Assembly: GCA_029262515.1 (NCBI GenBank)
Contig: JAJCZH010000031.1
Location: forward strand, 1 to 50,184
Direction: 5' to 3'
Source: Deltaproteobacteria bacterium
Lineage (GTDB): Bacteria; Desulfobacterota; GWC2-55-46; JADFVP01
DNA length: 50,184 nt
This document shows positions 1-7,397 of this stretch, piece by piece (the stretch's first letter is position 1; the number at the start of each line of letters is the position of its first letter). The notes below the pieces were generated by a model. The model made no database searches. It saw only the letters and a program-made list of their open reading frames with translations, and was not told the origin of the DNA. A program made the translations under genes and the position numbers.

Positions 1-1175
1 GGCGCGCCACCGGCCAGGCTCTTGTCCATAACTATAGCCGGCCTCAGTACCTCCTTGCCGTGGTAGGTCTTGCGCAGTTCCTCTAAAGAGTCTATTACCT
101 TCTGCACCGAGCGCCTTAGCCCTTTGGGTCTTATCCAGACATGGGTATACGGCTTGAAAGTAGCTATAAAACGTATATCCTTCAGTTCGCCTATCAGCCC
201 CTCGAGAGTATGGCCGAGATCGTCGGCGTACTTCTCTCTTACAAGTCTGTTCTGCTTTGTCTCCTTCATGCCTAGCTCTTCGGCAGAGAGAACGTAATCG
301 ACAACATCGTAGACGTCAACGTCGTTCATCCAGGACTTTACGCTAAAGAAGTTTAGCGCGGTATTAATCATCTCGTCGAGTATTTCGATAAAAGGAGGTA
401 CCTTGGGAACGGTTCCTATCAGCTCGATGAGTGCGAGTTCGCTTGCAAGCGGATCCATAATATTCTTGGCCGCCTCATACGTCCGCCTGATGGTCATATT
501 GTGGAGCTCTTCCAAACCTCCGCGCTCGGCTATCATATTACCGATAAAACCGAGAGCATACATCCTGTAGTACGGCTCAACGAGTTCTTCCGCCGCTTCC
601 ATTCCGAGCTTTATCGCCTCGATGAAGAGTTCGGCAAAAGGCCCTTCATCGCCTAGAGGCAGCTGATGAGCAATGCCTAGGAGCGTGAACCGGCGATAGA
701 AGACGTAATCTACCGTCTTTGGAAGTTCCTTTGCTATTGCCGCAAGGTCAGGCTCCTTAAAGTGCGGCCTCTCGGGCAGGCCGAGGGCGAGCCTCCAGAG
801 GTGTATTCTCAGGTCGAGTGTCGGTGCGGCCTCCGGTACCATAGCATCGAGGGTCATAAATGCTGTTACGCGCTCATTCTTCTCGTCGATCTCGTCAACA
901 ACGGTGATGACAGGTTCGAGGACTTCAAGATAAAACTGTAAAAAAGGGGTTGTAGACGGAAGGTGTTTTATAAACTGCAGCAGCGCACGCCTGCGGCTCT
1001 GGCAATCGGATATGGCATCGAGTATCTCGAAGGCGCTCATATAGAACTTTAGGTTCTCTAACCGTGGAGGCAGAGCAGCGACTATCTCGATAACGGACTC
1101 TTTAGCCCCGTGCTCATCCGGGTTGTTCCTAAACTCATCAAGAGCTTTTGCTATCTCTTTAACGGTATCGGTCAT
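1..1175 (-). CDS. Helical-repeat protein of unknown function (partial, C-terminus outside window)
   Basis: The frame is open from the ATG at 1175 to the window edge, giving 391 visible residues and no stop. I do not recognise a named family. The protein is almost wholly alpha-helical in composition and shows a loose repeat of about 35-45 residues: an Arg, then Ala-Leu, a hydrophobic run, Leu-Pro and often Pro-Phe (for example SRRRALLQFIKHLP and ERVTAFMTLDAMVP). This suggests HEAT/TPR-like scaffolding. Its ATG overlaps the TGA of the radical SAM gene by four bases (ATGA at 1172-1175), so the two are very probably translationally coupled and may work together. No signal peptide or membrane segment is visible. 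A role as an adaptor or substrate-recognition protein for the upstream AAA+/radical SAM genes is inference only. Confidence 0.75.
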   Translation of the reverse strand, partial: MTDTVKEIAKALDEFRNNPDEHGAKESVIEIVAALPPRLENLKFYMSAFEILDAISDCQSRRRALLQFIKHLPSTTPFLQFYLEVLEPVITVVDEIDEKNERVTAFMTLDAMVPEAAPTLDLRIHLWRLALGLPERPHFKEPDLAAIAKELPKTVDYVFYRRFTLLGIAHQLPLGDEGPFAELFIEAIKLGMEAAEELVEPYYRMYALGFIGNMIAERGGLEELHNMTIRRTYEAAKNIMDPLASELALIELIGTVPKVPPFIEILDEMINTALNFFSVKSWMNDVDVYDVVDYVLSAEELGMKETKQNRLVREKYADDLGHTLEGLIGELKDIRFIATFKPYTHVWIRPKGLRRSVQKVIDSLEELRKTYHGKEVLRPAIVMDKSLAGGA

Positions 1176-1759
1176 AAGGGGGTACTTGAGGAAGTGTTAG
1201 AGATGGCAACTCTGCTAAAACCGGTGCTTCTTACAGTACCGTCGGCGGCGACAATCAGTTCGGTACGGGCCTTAAGGTAGAAGTCTTCGACAGTGTACCT
1301 GTCGGTAACAAAATAGAACATCTGATTGGTGGAGCCGCGCGCCAGGAGCGTGGTCTCAGGGTTAGCCTCCTCGAAACCGCCGTCGATTAACACGTCGATA
1401 AATTCTGCGCACCTGCGCTCCTCTTCACGCTGCTTTATACGGTCGGCCCTGAAACCGGTATAGACCACGGTAGAGAGTCCGCACTCCTGTTTAGCAAACT
1501 GAAGCAGATCGTAAAGCGCCTCTGGCTGCAGGAACGGCTCGCCGCCGCTGACTGTAATACCCTCTATGCCGTCCCTGTAATACTTGGTAAAAAGTTCCTT
1601 CGGAGTGAGGACTTCGGCAGGCTCAAAAGAGTGGGTCTCTGTATTGAAGCAGCCCGGACATAATTTGGCGCAACCCTGAAAGAAAATGACCATCCGGGTA
1701 CCGGGGCCGTTGACCGTGGACTCCGGAATTACTGCATGTAGTTTTATCTTTTCTGACAT
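1172..1759 (-). CDS. Radical SAM activating enzyme, NrdG/PflA-like
   Basis: A 195-residue protein starting MSEKIKLHAV. It has the radical SAM cluster motif CAKLCPGC (CxxxCxxC), preceded by the GPGTRMVIFFQG segment typical of activases of glycyl-radical enzymes, and the SAM-binding GGEP motif (SGGEPFLQP). The length fits the small anaerobic ribonucleotide reductase activase type. No NrdD, PflB or other glycyl-radical enzyme lies nearby, so the substrate is unknown. The frame stays open upstream to 1891, but those extra codons translate a dispersed palindromic repeat (RAKRNPTL-type peptide) and have no ribosome-binding site, so 1759 is chosen. It lies in the AAA+/DUF1257/DUF2997 operon and overlaps the next gene by four bases. 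Confidence 0.85.
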   Translation of the reverse strand: MSEKIKLHAVIPESTVNGPGTRMVIFFQGCAKLCPGCFNTETHSFEPAEVLTPKELFTKYYRDGIEGITVSGGEPFLQPEALYDLLQFAKQECGLSTVVYTGFRADRIKQREEERRCAEFIDVLIDGGFEEANPETTLLARGSTNQMFYFVTDRYTVEDFYLKARTELIVAADGTVRSTGFSRVAISNTSSSTPL

Positions 1760-1780
1760 AGTAAGTCTTTCCGATAATAA

Positions 1781-1812
1781 CGTTGGGTTTCGCTTAGCTC
1801 TACCCAACCTAC
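1781..1812. repeat. Dispersed palindromic repeat (GTTGGGT...ACCCAAC)
   Basis: A 7-bp perfect inverted repeat, GTTGGGT (1782-1788) and ACCCAAC (1802-1808), encloses a 13-nt loop. From memory, very similar units (GTAGGTTGGGTAGAGC...GCGAAACCCAAC) are scattered in many proteobacterial genomes and are often mistranslated as peptides like AKRNPTL. Here it sits in the spacer just upstream of the radical SAM gene and could form a hairpin in the operon transcript. Only one copy was seen in the window. Confidence 0.55.
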
Positions 1813-1913
1813 AAAGCTTGAAAATTAAAATTCCAGGAAGTGGCCTGGCCTCTTGCGTAAAAAAACAACCAAGTTGGCAGTCAGCACTCAATATTTGCTG
1901 TCACGCATAGTGA

Positions 1914-2108
1914 CTAGTCGTTTTTGGTTTTGAGGGACTGGTCATCTATCAGCACCTCGTGGCCGAAGTCGTCTTTCTCTACGAACTTCTCCACAATACC
2001 GACGTGCTTCGAGAGCTGGGCCGCGACCTCTTTACAGTCGTCGTAGACGGATGAGTCTATCTCAACGCGACCGTCTTTTGTTATCTTTATCCGTATCTCT
2101 CTATCCAT
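1914..2108 (-). CDS. DUF2997 domain protein
   Basis: A 64-residue protein beginning MDREIRIKITKDGRVEID, which matches the DUF2997 pattern of a short beta-hairpin N-terminus followed by a Cys-containing helix (DDCKEVAAQLSKHVG). GGAG lies 9 nt before the ATG at 2108. Members of this family have no established biochemical function. In cyanobacteria, from memory, they neighbour DUF1257 (Ycf35) genes, as here. The acidic, Lys-rich composition and the absence of a signal peptide suggest a small cytosolic partner protein. It lies between the DUF1257 gene, across a 174-nt structured spacer, and the radical SAM gene. Confidence 0.8.
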   Translation of the reverse strand: MDREIRIKITKDGRVEIDSSVYDDCKEVAAQLSKHVGIVEKFVEKDDFGHEVLIDDQSLKTKND

Positions 2109-2184
2109 CGTTTATACTCCAGTACTCTAAAAACCTGTTTAAGTTACAGTAAAAAACAAGTTGGCCTTATGTACCTGATATACG

Positions 2185-2209
2185 CCACCACGCGCAGCAC
2201 CTGCGGTGG
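2185..2209. repeat. Spacer hairpin upstream of the DUF2997 gene
   Basis: CCACC (2185-2189) pairs with GGTGG (2205-2209), and inside it GCAG (2194-2197) pairs with CTGC (2201-2204) around a CAC loop, leaving ACGC as a bulge. The hairpin is transcribed in the minus-strand operon between the DUF1257 and DUF2997 genes. It has no U-tract, so it looks more like an mRNA processing or stability element than a terminator. Confidence 0.4.
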
Positions 2210-2282
2210 GCAATATATTCAAATCGGCACAGTGCGTATTAGGACCCCATGAGCTACCCAATATACCCCGCCTGGGGAGGGC

Positions 2283-2624
2283 CTAGTCTTTGAGCAGGAT
2301 GTGAATCTCGCCTTCTACGGACTCGACCTCCTCGACCACTTCGAGGTCGAGCGGAAGATTGTCCTTTATAGATTCTACGGCATAGACCTGCTTTAACCTG
2401 TCGGTAAACTTTTTTACGACAGTAGCATCCCCGCCGACCTCGAAACCCTTCTCTTCGTCGCCGGTAATAACGAGTTCGTCGCCGTCGCGGTCTATTTTGA
2501 TCTTGCCCTTGCGCTCGTTATCCTCTATCTTCTGTATCTCGCCCCGTTTATGCAGCTCCGCCAGCGCGCTTTTGAGATAGATCCTGTTCTTTATCTCGGT
2601 CTTTAGGCACATGTAGAATGACAT
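2283..2624 (-). CDS. DUF1257 (Ycf35-type) protein
   Basis: A 113-residue protein starting MSFYMCLKTEIKNR. The opening (a short beta strand followed by an element with conserved aliphatic and charged residues, then a GDELVITGDEEKGFEV strand segment) fits DUF1257, the family of plastid/cyanobacterial Ycf35. AAGGAG precedes the ATG at 2624 with good spacing. The function of the family is not established. It is a small cytosolic protein without cysteine clusters or membrane segments. It follows the AAA+ protease gene on the same strand across a 190-nt spacer with three small hairpins and precedes the DUF2997 gene. The ycf35/ycf46 pairing also occurs in algal plastids, which suggests a functional link with the AAA+ protein. 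Confidence 0.8.
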   Translation of the reverse strand: MSFYMCLKTEIKNRIYLKSALAELHKRGEIQKIEDNERKGKIKIDRDGDELVITGDEEKGFEVGGDATVVKKFTDRLKQVYAVESIKDNLPLDLEVVEEVESVEGEIHILLKD

Positions 2625-2639
2625 CGTTACAACTCCTTA

Positions 2640-2814
2640 CCACTCCGCGTGGCGCGTATACTGGATACCTTATGTGATTTCTAAAAATCTCAGAGCGAAC
2701 AATAAACAGATTTAATAACCCTGACCCACTGTCGCTCCGCGTGACAGCTATCTCATACCTTCGAGTTTCTAATAGCCTTCTGCGGCAGCTCGAGAATACT
2801 GCCACACGCAGTGG
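2640..2814. repeat. Three related small hairpins in the AAA+/DUF1257 spacer
   Basis: Hairpin A at 2640-2652 has CCAC/GTGG around TCCGC. Hairpin B at 2729-2747 has CTGTC/GACAG around GCTCCGCGT. Hairpin C at 2802-2814 has CCAC/GTGG around ACGCA. A and B share the nonamer CTCCGCGTG. A and C are imperfect inverted copies of each other and bound the spacer almost exactly, with C directly abutting the stop codon of the AAA+ gene. None has a U-tract. Confidence 0.45.
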
Positions 2815-4968
2815 TTAGGCCCCGGCCCCGGCGAAGGTATGCTCATCAAAGAAACGGTTTATCGAGTCTCCGTTCATAAGCACGTTCTCGCAGAGCACAT
2901 CGACCAGTCTCAGAAGCAGCGCCTTGTTATCGGAAATTACCTTGCTGCTCTTATAGGTGGCGTCATCGAGGATTGATTGAATATCCTCTAATATCTCTGA
3001 GCCCGAAGTCAGGGCAAAGTCTCCAAGCCCGATCAAACTCTTGTTGCTCATCCTGTCGCCGAAGCCGTACTCAACGACCATACGGCGCGCTATTCCCGTG
3101 GCCTGTACTAAATCATGCGAAGCCCCGAGCGTCTTGGAGTCGGAACCGGCAACCTCGGTCTCCGCGACCATGCCTCCAAGGATAACGCCGACCTCCTTGG
3201 CAATGTCGAGCTTCGTGAATGTCGTGCGCACCGCGTCATCAAGGGGGATAAAGGCCGAGAAGTCGCGGTAGCTGTCGAGGCTTACAAATGCCGGCGTGCG
3301 GTTGAAGTAGTGCTTCATTAACAGCAGGTGACCTGCCTCGTGTATCGCAATATTGCGCTTTTCTTCTTCGGTTAAAGACTCGGCCCTCTGCATAAAGAGC
3401 GTCTTAGAGGCAGGCCGCGCCCTCTGCTGGCTCCAGACCCGGAGGTTCTCTATCTCTTCCTTCTTGAGGATACTGAGCGGCGTAATAGCCCTTACGGTAT
3501 CGAGCAGAGTCTTCTGCTTTACGTCGAGCGACATAAGCCCCTCGACCACCTCTTCTGTCTTCTTGACGTCTCCGCTCTCATGGAGTTTGTTGAAGGTTGT
3601 GACTACGGCGTCCTTTACTGCCTGCTCTATTTCGGCTCCCGTGTAACCCTGCGAGTTCTGCGCCAGTTCGCGCATGTCTATCTGTGCGAGTTCCGCGACT
3701 CTGCGCTCAAGGTGGATTCTGAATATATCCTCCCTCTCCTCGACACTCGGCAGATCTACGAAAAAGACCTCGTCGTACCGCCCTTTTCTCCAGAGTTCGG
3801 GAGGAAGGTTCTGAGGATCGTTGGCAGTAGAGATAACAAAGACCGGTTTAGACTTCTCCTGAAGCCACGTTATAAAGGTACCGAAGACGCGGAGCTGTGT
3901 GCCGGAGTCTCCCTGATAACCGCTCACACCGCCAAACGCCTTGTCTATCTCGTCTATCCAGAGGATACACGGAGCAACGGCCTCGGAGAGCTGTATGCAG
4001 CGCCGTATATTCTTCTCGCTCTCTCCGACCGTAGAGCCGAAGATACGCCCGACATCGAGCTTTAAGAGCGGCAAGTTCCAGATACCTGCCAGCGCCTTGC
4101 AGCAGAGTGATTTACCCGAACCCGGCACGCCGATTAAGAGCAGACCCTTGGGTATATCGAGCCCAAGCGTCTCAATGCGGTCGCGGCTGAGGCGAAAGAC
4201 GTGTTCGCGCTCAACGAACCAGTGTTTTATCTCGTCGAGACCGCCGATATGCTCTATGGTCTCTTTATGAGGATAGTAATCGAGTATCTTCTGCTTCTGT
4301 ATTATCTGCTGCTTCTCGTCCTGAATGAACGAGATACAGTCTTCGTTCAAAATGCCGTTATTGAGACTTATGGACTTGCGTATTACCCGCTTTATGTTGT
4401 CCATAGACAGACCCTGGAGCGACTTGTAGAGGATAGATCGCGTTGAGGCGTGCCACGAGCCGGGTATGAGATGGTCGTAGGTCTCGGTGACCATCTCGGC
4501 GATTTCGTCGTAGTCCGGCAGCGACAACTCAAGTACGATTATATCCTCTTCGAGTTCCGGTGGAATCTCGCCAAGCGTAGGAGAGACGATGCAGACCGTA
4601 TTTACGGACTTTACATCCTCTATAATGGCCGGAAGGTCGCGGAAACGGCGCAGAAACTCATGAGAGATAAAGTACCCAGCGATATCTTTGAGCAGAAAGA
4701 GGTTGTTTTCGTCCTCGCTCCTCGTTATACGCTCTTCAATGGTAGAGAGTACCTTCTCTTTGCCCATCTGCTCGCGTTTGGCCTTGTCCTTATCACCTCC
4801 GACCATGCCGCGCGAGACCGACCACTTCCAGTAGGTGCTCTTTATATCCTCACACAGAGCCTCAAGTATCTTCTCTACCCTGCGCTCCTCAAAAGAGACG
4901 AGCCAGAGGATCGGATACCGCGCCTCTATATGGATTTTTACCTCTTTTTCAAAATCGGTTGCATTCAT
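2815..4968 (-). CDS. Soluble AAA+ zinc protease: Ycf46-like N-terminus with FtsH-like M41 domain
   Basis: 717 residues. Residues 1-170 resemble Ycf46 (ARYPILWLVSFEE...WSVSRG, then FLLKDIAGYF and IVSPTLGEIPPELEED). The AAA+ core follows: Walker A GVPGSGKS 280-287, Walker B LWIDEID 336-342, and an arginine-rich RKGRYDE 394-400 at the arginine-finger position. The C-terminus is FtsH-like: HEAGH at 543-547 supplies two zinc ligands and the catalytic Glu, and ASHDL at 616-620 matches the third-ligand segment, followed by ATGIARRMVVEYGFGD. Canonical FtsH is anchored by two N-terminal membrane helices, whereas here none is visible, so it should be cytosolic. The predicted role is ATP-driven unfolding and proteolysis of unknown substrates. 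It is the first gene of the minus-strand operon. Confidence 0.88.
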   Translation of the reverse strand: MNATDFEKEVKIHIEARYPILWLVSFEERRVEKILEALCEDIKSTYWKWSVSRGMVGGDKDKAKREQMGKEKVLSTIEERITRSEDENNLFLLKDIAGYFISHEFLRRFRDLPAIIEDVKSVNTVCIVSPTLGEIPPELEEDIIVLELSLPDYDEIAEMVTETYDHLIPGSWHASTRSILYKSLQGLSMDNIKRVIRKSISLNNGILNEDCISFIQDEKQQIIQKQKILDYYPHKETIEHIGGLDEIKHWFVEREHVFRLSRDRIETLGLDIPKGLLLIGVPGSGKSLCCKALAGIWNLPLLKLDVGRIFGSTVGESEKNIRRCIQLSEAVAPCILWIDEIDKAFGGVSGYQGDSGTQLRVFGTFITWLQEKSKPVFVISTANDPQNLPPELWRKGRYDEVFFVDLPSVEEREDIFRIHLERRVAELAQIDMRELAQNSQGYTGAEIEQAVKDAVVTTFNKLHESGDVKKTEEVVEGLMSLDVKQKTLLDTVRAITPLSILKKEEIENLRVWSQQRARPASKTLFMQRAESLTEEEKRNIAIHEAGHLLLMKHYFNRTPAFVSLDSYRDFSAFIPLDDAVRTTFTKLDIAKEVGVILGGMVAETEVAGSDSKTLGASHDLVQATGIARRMVVEYGFGDRMSNKSLIGLGDFALTSGSEILEDIQSILDDATYKSSKVISDNKALLLRLVDVLCENVLMNGDSINRFFDEHTFAGAGA

Positions 4969-5274
4969 GGTATCTCTTTCGCATCTCTTTCAGATGATTG
5001 AAAACAGATTAGTGAAAACACATCCTATATATCTATTATAGCAAAGATTGAGCATAACATAATCCATTTTACCTGTAAAACCGAAAACTTTGCACTCTTT
5101 TTAATCCTGAGCCACGCTATAGCAACCACGAAGCCGTGCTTGAGGCGGCTTGCCACAGACTCCTTTTTCTGATAAATTCAACAATTCGCTCTATCAAAGA
5201 GTGACTACCTACCGTAAAGTAGTACCGCCATAAAAAACCGTCGGCCTTGTGCCGATAGAGAGTAAAGAGCAGGT
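4969..5274. other. Divergent intergenic region
   Basis: This 306-nt AT-rich gap separates the minus-strand AAA+ operon from the plus-strand ABC exporter genes. Apart from the extended -10 element at 5035-5043 I see only a short inverted repeat (TCGGC/GCCGA, around 5240-5256) near the ABC ATPase start. No coding region is supported. Confidence 0.5.
5035..5043 (-). promoter_or_regulatory. Extended -10 promoter for the AAA+ operon
   Basis: On the minus strand TGCTATAAT (5043 to 5035) is a perfect sigma-70 -10 hexamer with the TGn extension. It lies about 65 nt upstream of the AAA+ start codon. No good -35 hexamer is present at 16-18 nt spacing, which is normal for extended -10 promoters. Confidence 0.5.
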
Positions 5275-6048
5275 ATGAAAAAGAGAGTACTCGAAGTAGA
5301 AAACCTTACGAAAAAATTCGGCAAGTTCACTGCTGTCGACTCGGTATCGTTTGAGATGTACGAGGGCGAGATACTCGGCCTCATGGGCCCAAACGGCGCG
5401 GGCAAGACAACAACGCTGCACATGCTCTTGGACCTCACCACAGCTACTTCGGGTACGGTTAAACTCTTCGAACTCGGTTATAAAGACGCACGCGTTGAGA
5501 TACTCTCGCGCGTAAACTTCTCAAGCTCCTATATTTCATTACCTTCAACGCTAACCGTTATAGAGAACCTCACTGTAATGGCAAGAGTCTACGGAATAGG
5601 TGGCGCAAAGAGAAGAAAAGAAATAATAGATGAACTGATGCGCCTTTTTGAGATAACCGAGCTTGCCAAACACTCCACGCGCGGTCTCTCAAGCGGGCAA
5701 CTTACAAGGGTCTGTCTCGTAAAAGCGCTCTTGAACAGGCCGGAGATACTCTTTCTGGATGAGCCTACCGCGAGCCTCGACCCCGACATAGCCGACAAGA
5801 CGAGAAGGCTGCTCAAGAGTATTCGTGACGAGCGCAAAATCTCCATCCTCTACTCCTCTCATAACATGGCCGAGATGGAAGAGATATGCGACCGCTTAAT
5901 CTTCATAAACAGAGGCAAGATCGTGGCCACGGGCACGGCAGAAGAACTTTTGAAAGAGTATAACGAAAAGAGCCTCGAAGAGGTCTTCTTGAAGATAACC
6001 CGCTCATCCGGTTCGGATAACAAGAAGGCCGAGACAGGCAGAGCATGA
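5275..6048 (+). CDS. ABC transporter ATP-binding protein (ABC-2 exporter)
   Basis: 257 residues with all ABC ATPase motifs: Walker A GPNGAGKT (38-45), signature LSSGQ (138-142), Walker B LFLDEP (159-164) with the catalytic Glu, and the switch His (YSSHN, His196). It belongs to the CcmA/NatA type that pairs with ABC-2 permeases. Its TGA overlaps the ATG of the permease gene by four bases (ATGA at 6045-6048), so the two are translationally coupled and should form one exporter. The substrate cannot be told from sequence: drugs, lipids or polysaccharide are all possible. The C-terminal 20 residues are Ser/Lys-rich and probably unstructured. Confidence 0.92.
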   Translation: MKKRVLEVENLTKKFGKFTAVDSVSFEMYEGEILGLMGPNGAGKTTTLHMLLDLTTATSGTVKLFELGYKDARVEILSRVNFSSSYISLPSTLTVIENLTVMARVYGIGGAKRRKEIIDELMRLFEITELAKHSTRGLSSGQLTRVCLVKALLNRPEILFLDEPTASLDPDIADKTRRLLKSIRDERKISILYSSHNMAEMEEICDRLIFINRGKIVATGTAEELLKEYNEKSLEEVFLKITRSSGSDNKKAETGRA

Positions 6049-6836
6049 ATATACAAAGAATATTAGGGTTTTCGACCCGCTACCTCTACCTCTACAAGAG
6101 AAGCCTTCCTCGCCTGATGGAGATATTCTACTGGCCGGTAATCGACCTGCTGCTCTGGGGCTTTGTCGGCATCTACCTTAAAAAGCATCAGGGCACGGGC
6201 CCCGACATAATCGCTTTCTTTCTCGGCGCGCTCATACTCTGGGACATACTCTTCAGGAGCCAGCAGGGCATAAGCATCTCGTTCCTTGAAGATATATGGT
6301 CGCGGAACCTCTTGAACATCTTCACGTCACCGATTTCACAGACCGAGTACATCGTCACGCTTCTGTTAATGAGCGTGATAAAACTGATACTCGCCTCTAC
6401 GGTTATGGTTCTGCTGGCCTGGCTCTTCTACACCTTCAACATCTTCACCTTCGGCCTTGCTCTCATTCCGCTTGCGGCGAACCTGATAATAATGGGCTGG
6501 TCGATCGGCATAATCACCACGGCTATAATACTGCGTTACGGCCAGCAGGCCGAGGTGCTTGCATGGGGCATCGCCTTTCTCTTTCAGCCGGTCTCGGCAG
6601 TCTTCTACCCCGTTGATGTTCTTCCCGGATTCTTAAAAACAGTAGCGTGGTTCGTACCCGCCTCCCACGTCTTCGAAGGGATGCGGACGGTGCTCGACGG
6701 CAACCCCTTGCCTCTCGATCAGGTCTTTATAGCGGCTCTGCTCAACTGCGCTTACATAATGGTAGCGATACTCTTTTTCAACTGGAACTTCAAGGCGGTA
6801 AAGAGAAAAGGGCTGCTCGTCAAGAACGGCGAGTAG
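6045..6836 (+). CDS. ABC-2 type permease
   Basis: 263 residues with about six hydrophobic segments (for example VIDLLLWGFVGIYL, IAFFLGALILWDILF, LILASTVMVLLAWLFYTF and LIPLAANLIIMGWSIGII). Near the C-terminus is the FYPVDVLPGFLKTVAWFVPASHVFEGMR segment typical of ABC-2 permeases of the DrrB/NodJ type. It is the membrane partner of the overlapping ATPase gene just upstream. The pair stands alone, with no adjacent regulator or substrate gene, so the exported compound is unknown. Confidence 0.9.
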   Translation: MNIQRILGFSTRYLYLYKRSLPRLMEIFYWPVIDLLLWGFVGIYLKKHQGTGPDIIAFFLGALILWDILFRSQQGISISFLEDIWSRNLLNIFTSPISQTEYIVTLLLMSVIKLILASTVMVLLAWLFYTFNIFTFGLALIPLAANLIIMGWSIGIITTAIILRYGQQAEVLAWGIAFLFQPVSAVFYPVDVLPGFLKTVAWFVPASHVFEGMRTVLDGNPLPLDQVFIAALLNCAYIMVAILFFNWNFKAVKRKGLLVKNGE

Positions 6837-6854: not shown

Positions 6855-7397
6855 CTAATCACCGAGCCCTTCGAGCACGCTTGAGTAGGCCCGAAGGTCG
6901 GAGTCGCTAAAGAGTACGAAGCGGACAAGTTCAATAGAAGACGGAACCTTTAAAAAGTCGATTACGGTCGAAAGCGCGATTTCCGCCGCCTCTTCTGTCG
7001 GATAAGAGTAAACGCCTGTGCTGATGGAAGGGAACGCGAGGCTATGCAGGCCGTGCTCTTTGGCGAGCTTCAGGCTCGACATGTAGGCGCTTTTTAGAAG
7101 TTCGGCCTCACCTCTATTTCCGCCTCTATAGACCGGGCCTACCGTATGGATTACATAAGAAGAAGGCAGCTCTCCGGCGCCTGTTATCACCGCAGTGCCT
7201 GTGGGGCAGCCGCCGATCTTGCGGCACTCGGCCATTATAGCAGGCCCGCCAACCGAGTGTATGGCTCCGTCCACCCCGCCGCCGCCAGAGAGCGCAGAAT
7301 TTGCGGCGTTGACGATTGCGTCCACCGCCTCTGTTGTGATATCGCCCCTCGTAAGCTCTAAAGTAGAGCCGTTGAATTCTTTCTTAAAACACCCCAC
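6855..7397 (-). CDS. Macrodomain protein (O-acetyl-ADP-ribose deacetylase type)
   Basis: 180 residues with the hallmark macrodomain motifs: GDIT near residue 18, NAAN (30-33) followed by the Gly-rich GGGGVDGAIH (38-47), and PSISTGVYSYP (123-133), which holds the distal ribose. These match the YmdB/MacroD class that hydrolyses O-acetyl-ADP-ribose or ADP-ribosyl groups. The start is GTG at 7397, with GGGAG six nt upstream. It is convergent with the ABC exporter across 18 nt. No ADP-ribosyltransferase or NAD-consuming toxin is adjacent, so a housekeeping role is likely. Confidence 0.92.
   Translation of the reverse strand: MGCFKKEFNGSTLELTRGDITTEAVDAIVNAANSALSGGGGVDGAIHSVGGPAIMAECRKIGGCPTGTAVITGAGELPSSYVIHTVGPVYRGGNRGEAELLKSAYMSSLKLAKEHGLHSLAFPSISTGVYSYPTEEAAEIALSTVIDFLKVPSSIELVRFVLFSDSDLRAYSSVLEGLGD

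Follow-up and report, generated by a model that had tools for sequence, protein, structure and literature searches.

Base 1 of the window (the whole stretch of 50,184 nucleotides analyzed here) is also base 1 of contig C31, which belongs to a 2.5-Mb draft genome that is 98% complete; the class that carries the operon consists of uncultured groundwater bacteria. Five consecutive open reading frames on the minus strand fill positions 4968 to 3, in agreement with the run of five genes described in the original prediction. Gene 1 (4968 to 2815; 717 aa) encodes a Ycf46-type AAA+ protein fused to a peptidase M41 domain, gene 2 (2624 to 2283; 113 aa) a divergent DUF1257 (Ycf35) protein, gene 3 (2108 to 1914; 64 aa) a divergent DUF2997 protein, and gene 4 (1759 to 1172; 195 aa) an NrdG-like radical SAM protein. 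Gene 5 (1175 to 3) runs off the contig end; the 391 aa that remain in the window are its N-terminal half and correspond to the alpha-helical repeats of a repeat-Hsp70 fusion. The ATGA overlap reported earlier is present between the last two reading frames, genes 4 and 5, and a 4-nt overlap of this pair also occurs in several other loci of the class.

The other spacers of the window genome measure 190, 174, and 154 nt, while those of relatives are mostly shorter, often 6 to 130 nt. Their length is explained in part by a REP-like palindrome, GTTGGGTAGAGCTAAGCGAAACCCAAC, which by sequence match occupies positions 1782 to 1808 (minus strand) of the spacer between genes 3 and 4. It is matched once in the window, compared with no match expected by chance, and it recurs with 2 mismatches at two other loci of the same genome. 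Upstream of gene 1, an extended -10-like element, TGCTATAAT, can be read at positions 5043 to 5035 of the minus strand. The element behind the extended -10 promoter proposed for the operon is therefore there, but promoter-like matches in the region are at chance level (5 found versus 5.2 expected). Elsewhere in the window, a minus-strand reading frame at 6855 to 7397 appears from its sequence to encode a macrodomain (ADP-ribose binding or hydrolyzing) protein and adjoins an ABC transporter pair; it is unrelated to the operon.

Domain content of the five proteins

Gene 1 matched the Pfam AAA (E = 1e-28) and peptidase M41 (E = 4e-17) models and consists of an N-terminal region (residues ~1 to 225), an active AAA+ domain (~236 to 470), and an M41 domain (~530 to 704) with the HEAGH motif. 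Residues 1 to 522 are 38 to 40% identical to Ycf46-type proteins from many cyanobacterial loci and about 39% identical to planctomycete ones, all of which lack M41. The M41 assignment is based on the Pfam match together with invariant alignment columns: in ten diverse relatives of gene 1, H543, E544, and H547 of the zinc motif HEAGH do not vary, nor do D619 and the motif GASxD. No transmembrane segment was detected in gene 1, in which the highest 19-residue hydropathy value was 1.27, at the Walker A region; we therefore consider the protein to be soluble, unlike FtsH. The N-terminal region is possibly a degenerate AAA-like domain, judging from a weak profile similarity to the AAA core (probability of 20%, P = 0.001). 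The pore loop of the active domain appears to read STVGES, without the aromatic residue found in FtsH, and because of this, threading into the M41 domain is not assured.

A single-sequence Pfam search with gene 2 returned no match, including to DUF1257. However, comparison of its class-level profile with canonical DUF1257 gave a probability of 96.5% (E = 1e-9) over the full length (columns 1 to 111), while column-shuffled controls reached at most 1.2%. Gene 3 scored 17 bits against Pfam DUF2997, under the cut-off of 24.1, and its class profile matched canonical DUF2997 with a probability of 95.8% (E = 7e-9). The original DUF1257 and DUF2997 assignments are thus borne out at the level of class profiles even though single sequences fall short, and we regard both proteins as divergent members of their families. 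Cys25 of gene 3 is invariant in 70 of 70 aligned sequences. The AlphaFold2 model of gene 2 had a mean pLDDT of 89; a fold search with it found no clear structural relative and no match with an E value below 0.001. The best match, to BamC, had a Z score of 8.2, which falls within the level of common arrangements, and we therefore read no function from it. Searching PDB sequences with the DUF1257 profile produced chance matches only.

Gene 4 encodes a radical SAM protein with the CX3CX2C motif (Pfam radical SAM/Fer4_12, E = 6e-32) whose cluster cysteines are invariant in 21 sequences. Its closest relative is NrdG, with a TIGR02491 score of 115.9 bits, under the cut-off of 126.1. The original prediction had described it as a radical SAM activase. 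Neither NrdD, the class III ribonucleotide reductase (PF13597), nor a Gly_radical domain (PF01228) was found in the window genome, and both were absent from 32 of the 35 near-complete genomes with a copy of gene 1; the substrate of gene 4 is therefore probably something else. Within the operon, the glycyl-radical motif RVxGY gave a single chance match that is not conserved, so none of the operon proteins looks like a glycyl-radical target. Barring a hidden divergent glycyl-radical enzyme, gene 4 probably does not act as a classical activase.

The description of gene 5 as a helical-repeat adaptor had to be replaced, as the window holds only half of a repeat-Hsp70 fusion. Full-length relatives are about 885 aa long. 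Their N-terminal 380 residues are modeled as alpha-helical repeats and their final 490 residues are Hsp70, with a Pfam HSP70 match of E = 2e-19 in the relative at locus L031 and with little or no variation in the motifs DLGxTN, DFGGxT, and TGGxSxIP. An AlphaFold2 model (mean pLDDT of 78) matched DnaK lacking SBD-alpha with a Z score of 31.2, and it aligned with nucleotide-binding domains at 3 Å root mean square deviation over ~317 residues. The full-length protein thus has an Hsp70 nucleotide-binding domain and SBD-beta; the SBD-alpha lid is absent from full-length gene 5 proteins, in which the chain ends after the SBD-beta strands. In the window genome, the missing Hsp70 half lies on contig C19, of which it is the last gene (locus L192, 7560 to 9020), and it begins at the contig edge with AIDLGATNT. 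A small TPR protein of ~145 aa is encoded after gene 5 both in this genome (L192, 6840 to 7274, minus strand) and in the largest family of the order (L033, 3081 to 3530, minus strand). It is possibly a sixth operon gene, one that is not seen class-wide.

Co-inheritance within the class and distribution beyond it

When each gene was searched separately in 63 genomes of the class, all five were found in 42, none in 14, and some in 7; relatives of gene 1 were present in 46. All-or-none genomes therefore numbered 56 of 63, compared with a mean of ~13 under random placement, a contrast that carries no formal probability and to which shared ancestry contributes. Class loci keep the order 1-2-3-4-5 for as far as the contig allows it to be followed, and spacing is mostly operon-like. 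Most partial sets are due to contig ends, with the locus ending at an edge in genomes G059 and G044 and beginning at one in G038; of the others, genome G046 is 61% complete and the set of G001 is split over two contigs. The real exception is G057, in which genes 2 to 5 are present and other genes occupy the place of gene 1 upstream. Gene 1 is single copy with broadly vertical inheritance in the class, and no relatives of it were found in viral contigs. These data indicate that within the class the five genes behave as the unit originally proposed and do not co-occur only rarely. At one locus (L107, 7622 to 10176), inserted genes of restriction-modification-like character, which read as a cytosine methyltransferase-like protein and a Vsr-type endonuclease-like protein, lie between the DUF2997 and radical SAM genes, both of which are unbroken.

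Outside the class, the proposed co-occurrence held only for parts of the set, and the M41 fusion was not seen among the matches listed. We scanned ~85,000 species genomes with gene 1 as the query. Among the matches listed, the M41 fusion was found at no fewer than 27 loci, some of them incomplete, and only in metagenome-assembled genomes named Deltaproteobacteria, Desulfuromonadales, Nitrospirae/Nitrospirota, or simply "bacterium." The next best of the listed matches, from Planctomycetota, Cyanobacteria, Armatimonadota, Sumerlaeota, and Verrucomicrobia, covered the Ycf46 part only. Planctomycete loci with sufficient flank contain Ycf46, DUF1257, and DUF2997 genes in the same order as the operon, and the Ycf46 and DUF1257 genes are adjacent in some cyanobacteria (L149 and L157). 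Two Phycisphaerae loci (L130 and L163) also have radical SAM genes upstream of Ycf46; these genes belong to another subfamily and were excluded from the counts. In three Sumerlaeota/BRC1 loci, a gene that reads as peptide-deformylase-like lies directly upstream of Ycf46 (L145, 8782 to 9360; L150, 9246 to 9836; L155, 1073 to 1645).

In other families of the same phylum, canonical DUF1257 genes adjoin a gene for a Ycf46-type AAA protein without M41. Where enough flank is available, these loci also contain an Hsp70-like gene, and the large neighbors tested include HEAT proteins. Given such neighbors, gene 5 looks like a fusion of the two. DUF2997 is present in some of these loci, and a radical SAM gene is present in L081, L082, and L083. 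In L081, a protein with a formylglycine-generating-enzyme domain (4321 to 6201; Pfam E = 1.5e-49) is encoded between the DUF1257 and radical SAM genes and is possibly another peptide-modifying partner. From this distribution we infer that an old three-gene core (Ycf46, DUF1257, and DUF2997) gained Hsp70 and HEAT repeats and then radical SAM and M41. Because other lineages have Ycf46 without M41, Hsp70, or radical SAM, which would be add-ons, the function of the core may not be proteolysis.

Function of the gene set and comparison with known systems

We propose that the genes encode a single cytosolic chaperone-unfoldase-protease unit. It would be an extension of the old Ycf46-Ycf35 (DUF1257)-DUF2997 core and would include a radical SAM modifier; we put the probability of this reading at roughly one half. 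The observations behind it are the gene identities, the kept order, the all-or-none inheritance, the intact ATPase, zinc-protease, Hsp70, and radical SAM motifs, and the lack of a membrane anchor. The partial gene sets of other families of the phylum and of Planctomycetes, the habitat-linked losses of both ycf35 and ycf46 in red algal plastids (PMC5940233), and the cyanobacterial DUF2997-ycf35-fed7 cluster (PMC4284462) also speak for it. Genome G057, the Ycf46 genes of other lineages that stand without M41, Hsp70, or radical SAM, the pore loop without an aromatic residue, and the DUF1257 model without a clear structural relative speak against it. In such a unit, the repeat-Hsp70 protein would bind a client and hand it over to the Ycf46-type AAA ring, which, aided by the DUF1257 and DUF2997 proteins, would unfold this specific client and feed it into the fused M41 chamber, where the committed client would be degraded. 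The radical SAM protein may act on the client or on one of the two small proteins, modifying or repairing it, and may thereby set the choice between maturation and destruction. A candidate site of contact or modification is Cys25, which is invariant in the DUF2997 protein.

A reasonable alternative, which we hold more tentatively, is that the set forms a machine that assembles and matures a single metalloenzyme. In that case, the radical SAM protein would make or install a modification or cofactor, the Hsp70 protein and the AAA ring would remodel the apo-enzyme, and M41 would only trim or remove failed products. Each of these three protein types (radical SAM, Hsp70, and ring AAA) has a part in known maturation pathways. 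Evidence from photosynthetic relatives points the same way: DUF2997, ycf35, and the ferredoxin gene fed7 form a gene cluster in cyanobacteria (PMC4284462); the activity of the carbonic anhydrase EcaB drops upon loss of Ycf46, according to Jiang 2015 as cited in PMC7496141; and losses of ycf35 and ycf46 in red algal plastids both track habitat, with the authors tying retention of the two genes to iron (PMC5940233). However, the flanks of the operon contain no enzyme gene that is conserved throughout the class, and a fused protease would be unusual for a pure maturation factor.

A bolder version of the chaperone-unfoldase-protease reading, which we consider doubtful, is that radical SAM chemistry on a protein, perhaps on the DUF2997 cysteine or on the client, serves as a signal or repair step that steers proteins between Hsp70 and the soluble AAA-M41 protease, with the plastid Ycf35/Ycf46 pair as a reduced form. 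Somewhat more improbable is a conflict or stress system resembling the FtsH ternary systems, in which one protein pairs an inactive N-terminal AAA domain with an active one, MoxR and vWA components are also present, and related systems include Hsp70 (Kaur et al. 2020; PMC7159879); the radical SAM protein of the operon would be the effector. The similar two-AAA layout, the weak resemblance of gene 1's N-terminal region to the AAA core, and the Hsp70 partner speak for such a system, but the conserved set contains no MoxR or vWA gene, gene 1 is inherited in single copy in a broadly vertical manner with no viral-contig relative found, and PADLOC matches, which we rejected as evidence of a defense system, reflect generic AAA or radical SAM similarity only. 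That gene 4 is an ordinary NrdG-type activase, placed in the operon for regulation only and surrounded by an unrelated housekeeping quality-control set, is very improbable and largely refuted, for although its TIGR02491 score is near the cut-off, NrdD and the Gly_radical domain are missing from the window genome and most gene 1 genomes, and gene 4 is kept and lost together with the other four genes.

Ycf35 and Ycf46 occur as conserved proteins in cyanobacteria and in many plastids, and the partial literature searched holds no defined molecular function for Ycf46, DUF1257, or DUF2997. The operon offers a handle on their role. It ties them to Hsp70 and HEAT repeats, and here also to M41 and radical SAM, far beyond photosynthetic organisms, which yields the testable hypothesis that they take part in client handling by a chaperone-AAA machine. 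If the proposed unit exists, a radical SAM protein tied to a chaperone-protease set in genomes without glycyl-radical enzymes would represent a new use of radical chemistry, and a radical SAM step between Hsp70 and AAA-M41 would be a new kind of control over protein fate.

Several known systems resemble parts of the operon. Like gene 1, FtsH has an AAA+ domain followed by a catalytic M41 domain with HEAGH; however, FtsH carries an N-terminal transmembrane anchor, whereas gene 1 has no transmembrane segment and has a Ycf46-type N-terminal region, and gene 1 scores only 169 of the 600 bits set as the cut-off of the FtsH model TIGR01241. The anaerobic ribonucleotide reductase activase NrdG is, like gene 4, a small radical SAM protein with CX3CX2C, but gene 4 differs in its sub-cut-off score, in its genome without NrdD, and in its fixed partner genes. 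The FtsH ternary systems, whose logic is the nearest to have been described, have a two-AAA layout like the one that is possible for gene 1 and a link to chaperone logic, whereas their MoxR and vWA components are absent from the conserved five-gene order here, and DUF1257 and DUF2997 go unmentioned in PMC7159879. Other families of the phylum have Ycf46-DUF1257-Hsp70-like-HEAT clusters with the same core, in which the AAA protein lacks M41, HEAT and Hsp70 are usually separate genes, and radical SAM is rare. The Ycf46, Ycf35, and DUF2997 genes of cyanobacteria and red algal plastids encode the homologous AAA protein, DUF1257, and DUF2997 that are common to the operon, but without the M41 domain and without a linked repeat-Hsp70 protein, and their published cluster has fed7 rather than a radical SAM gene. 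The partial literature that we searched contains neither a description of the five-gene combination nor an article that deals with DUF1257 or with DUF2997 in connection with Hsp70, M41, or radical SAM. Each of the families is already known; their combination is new as far as the searched literature shows.
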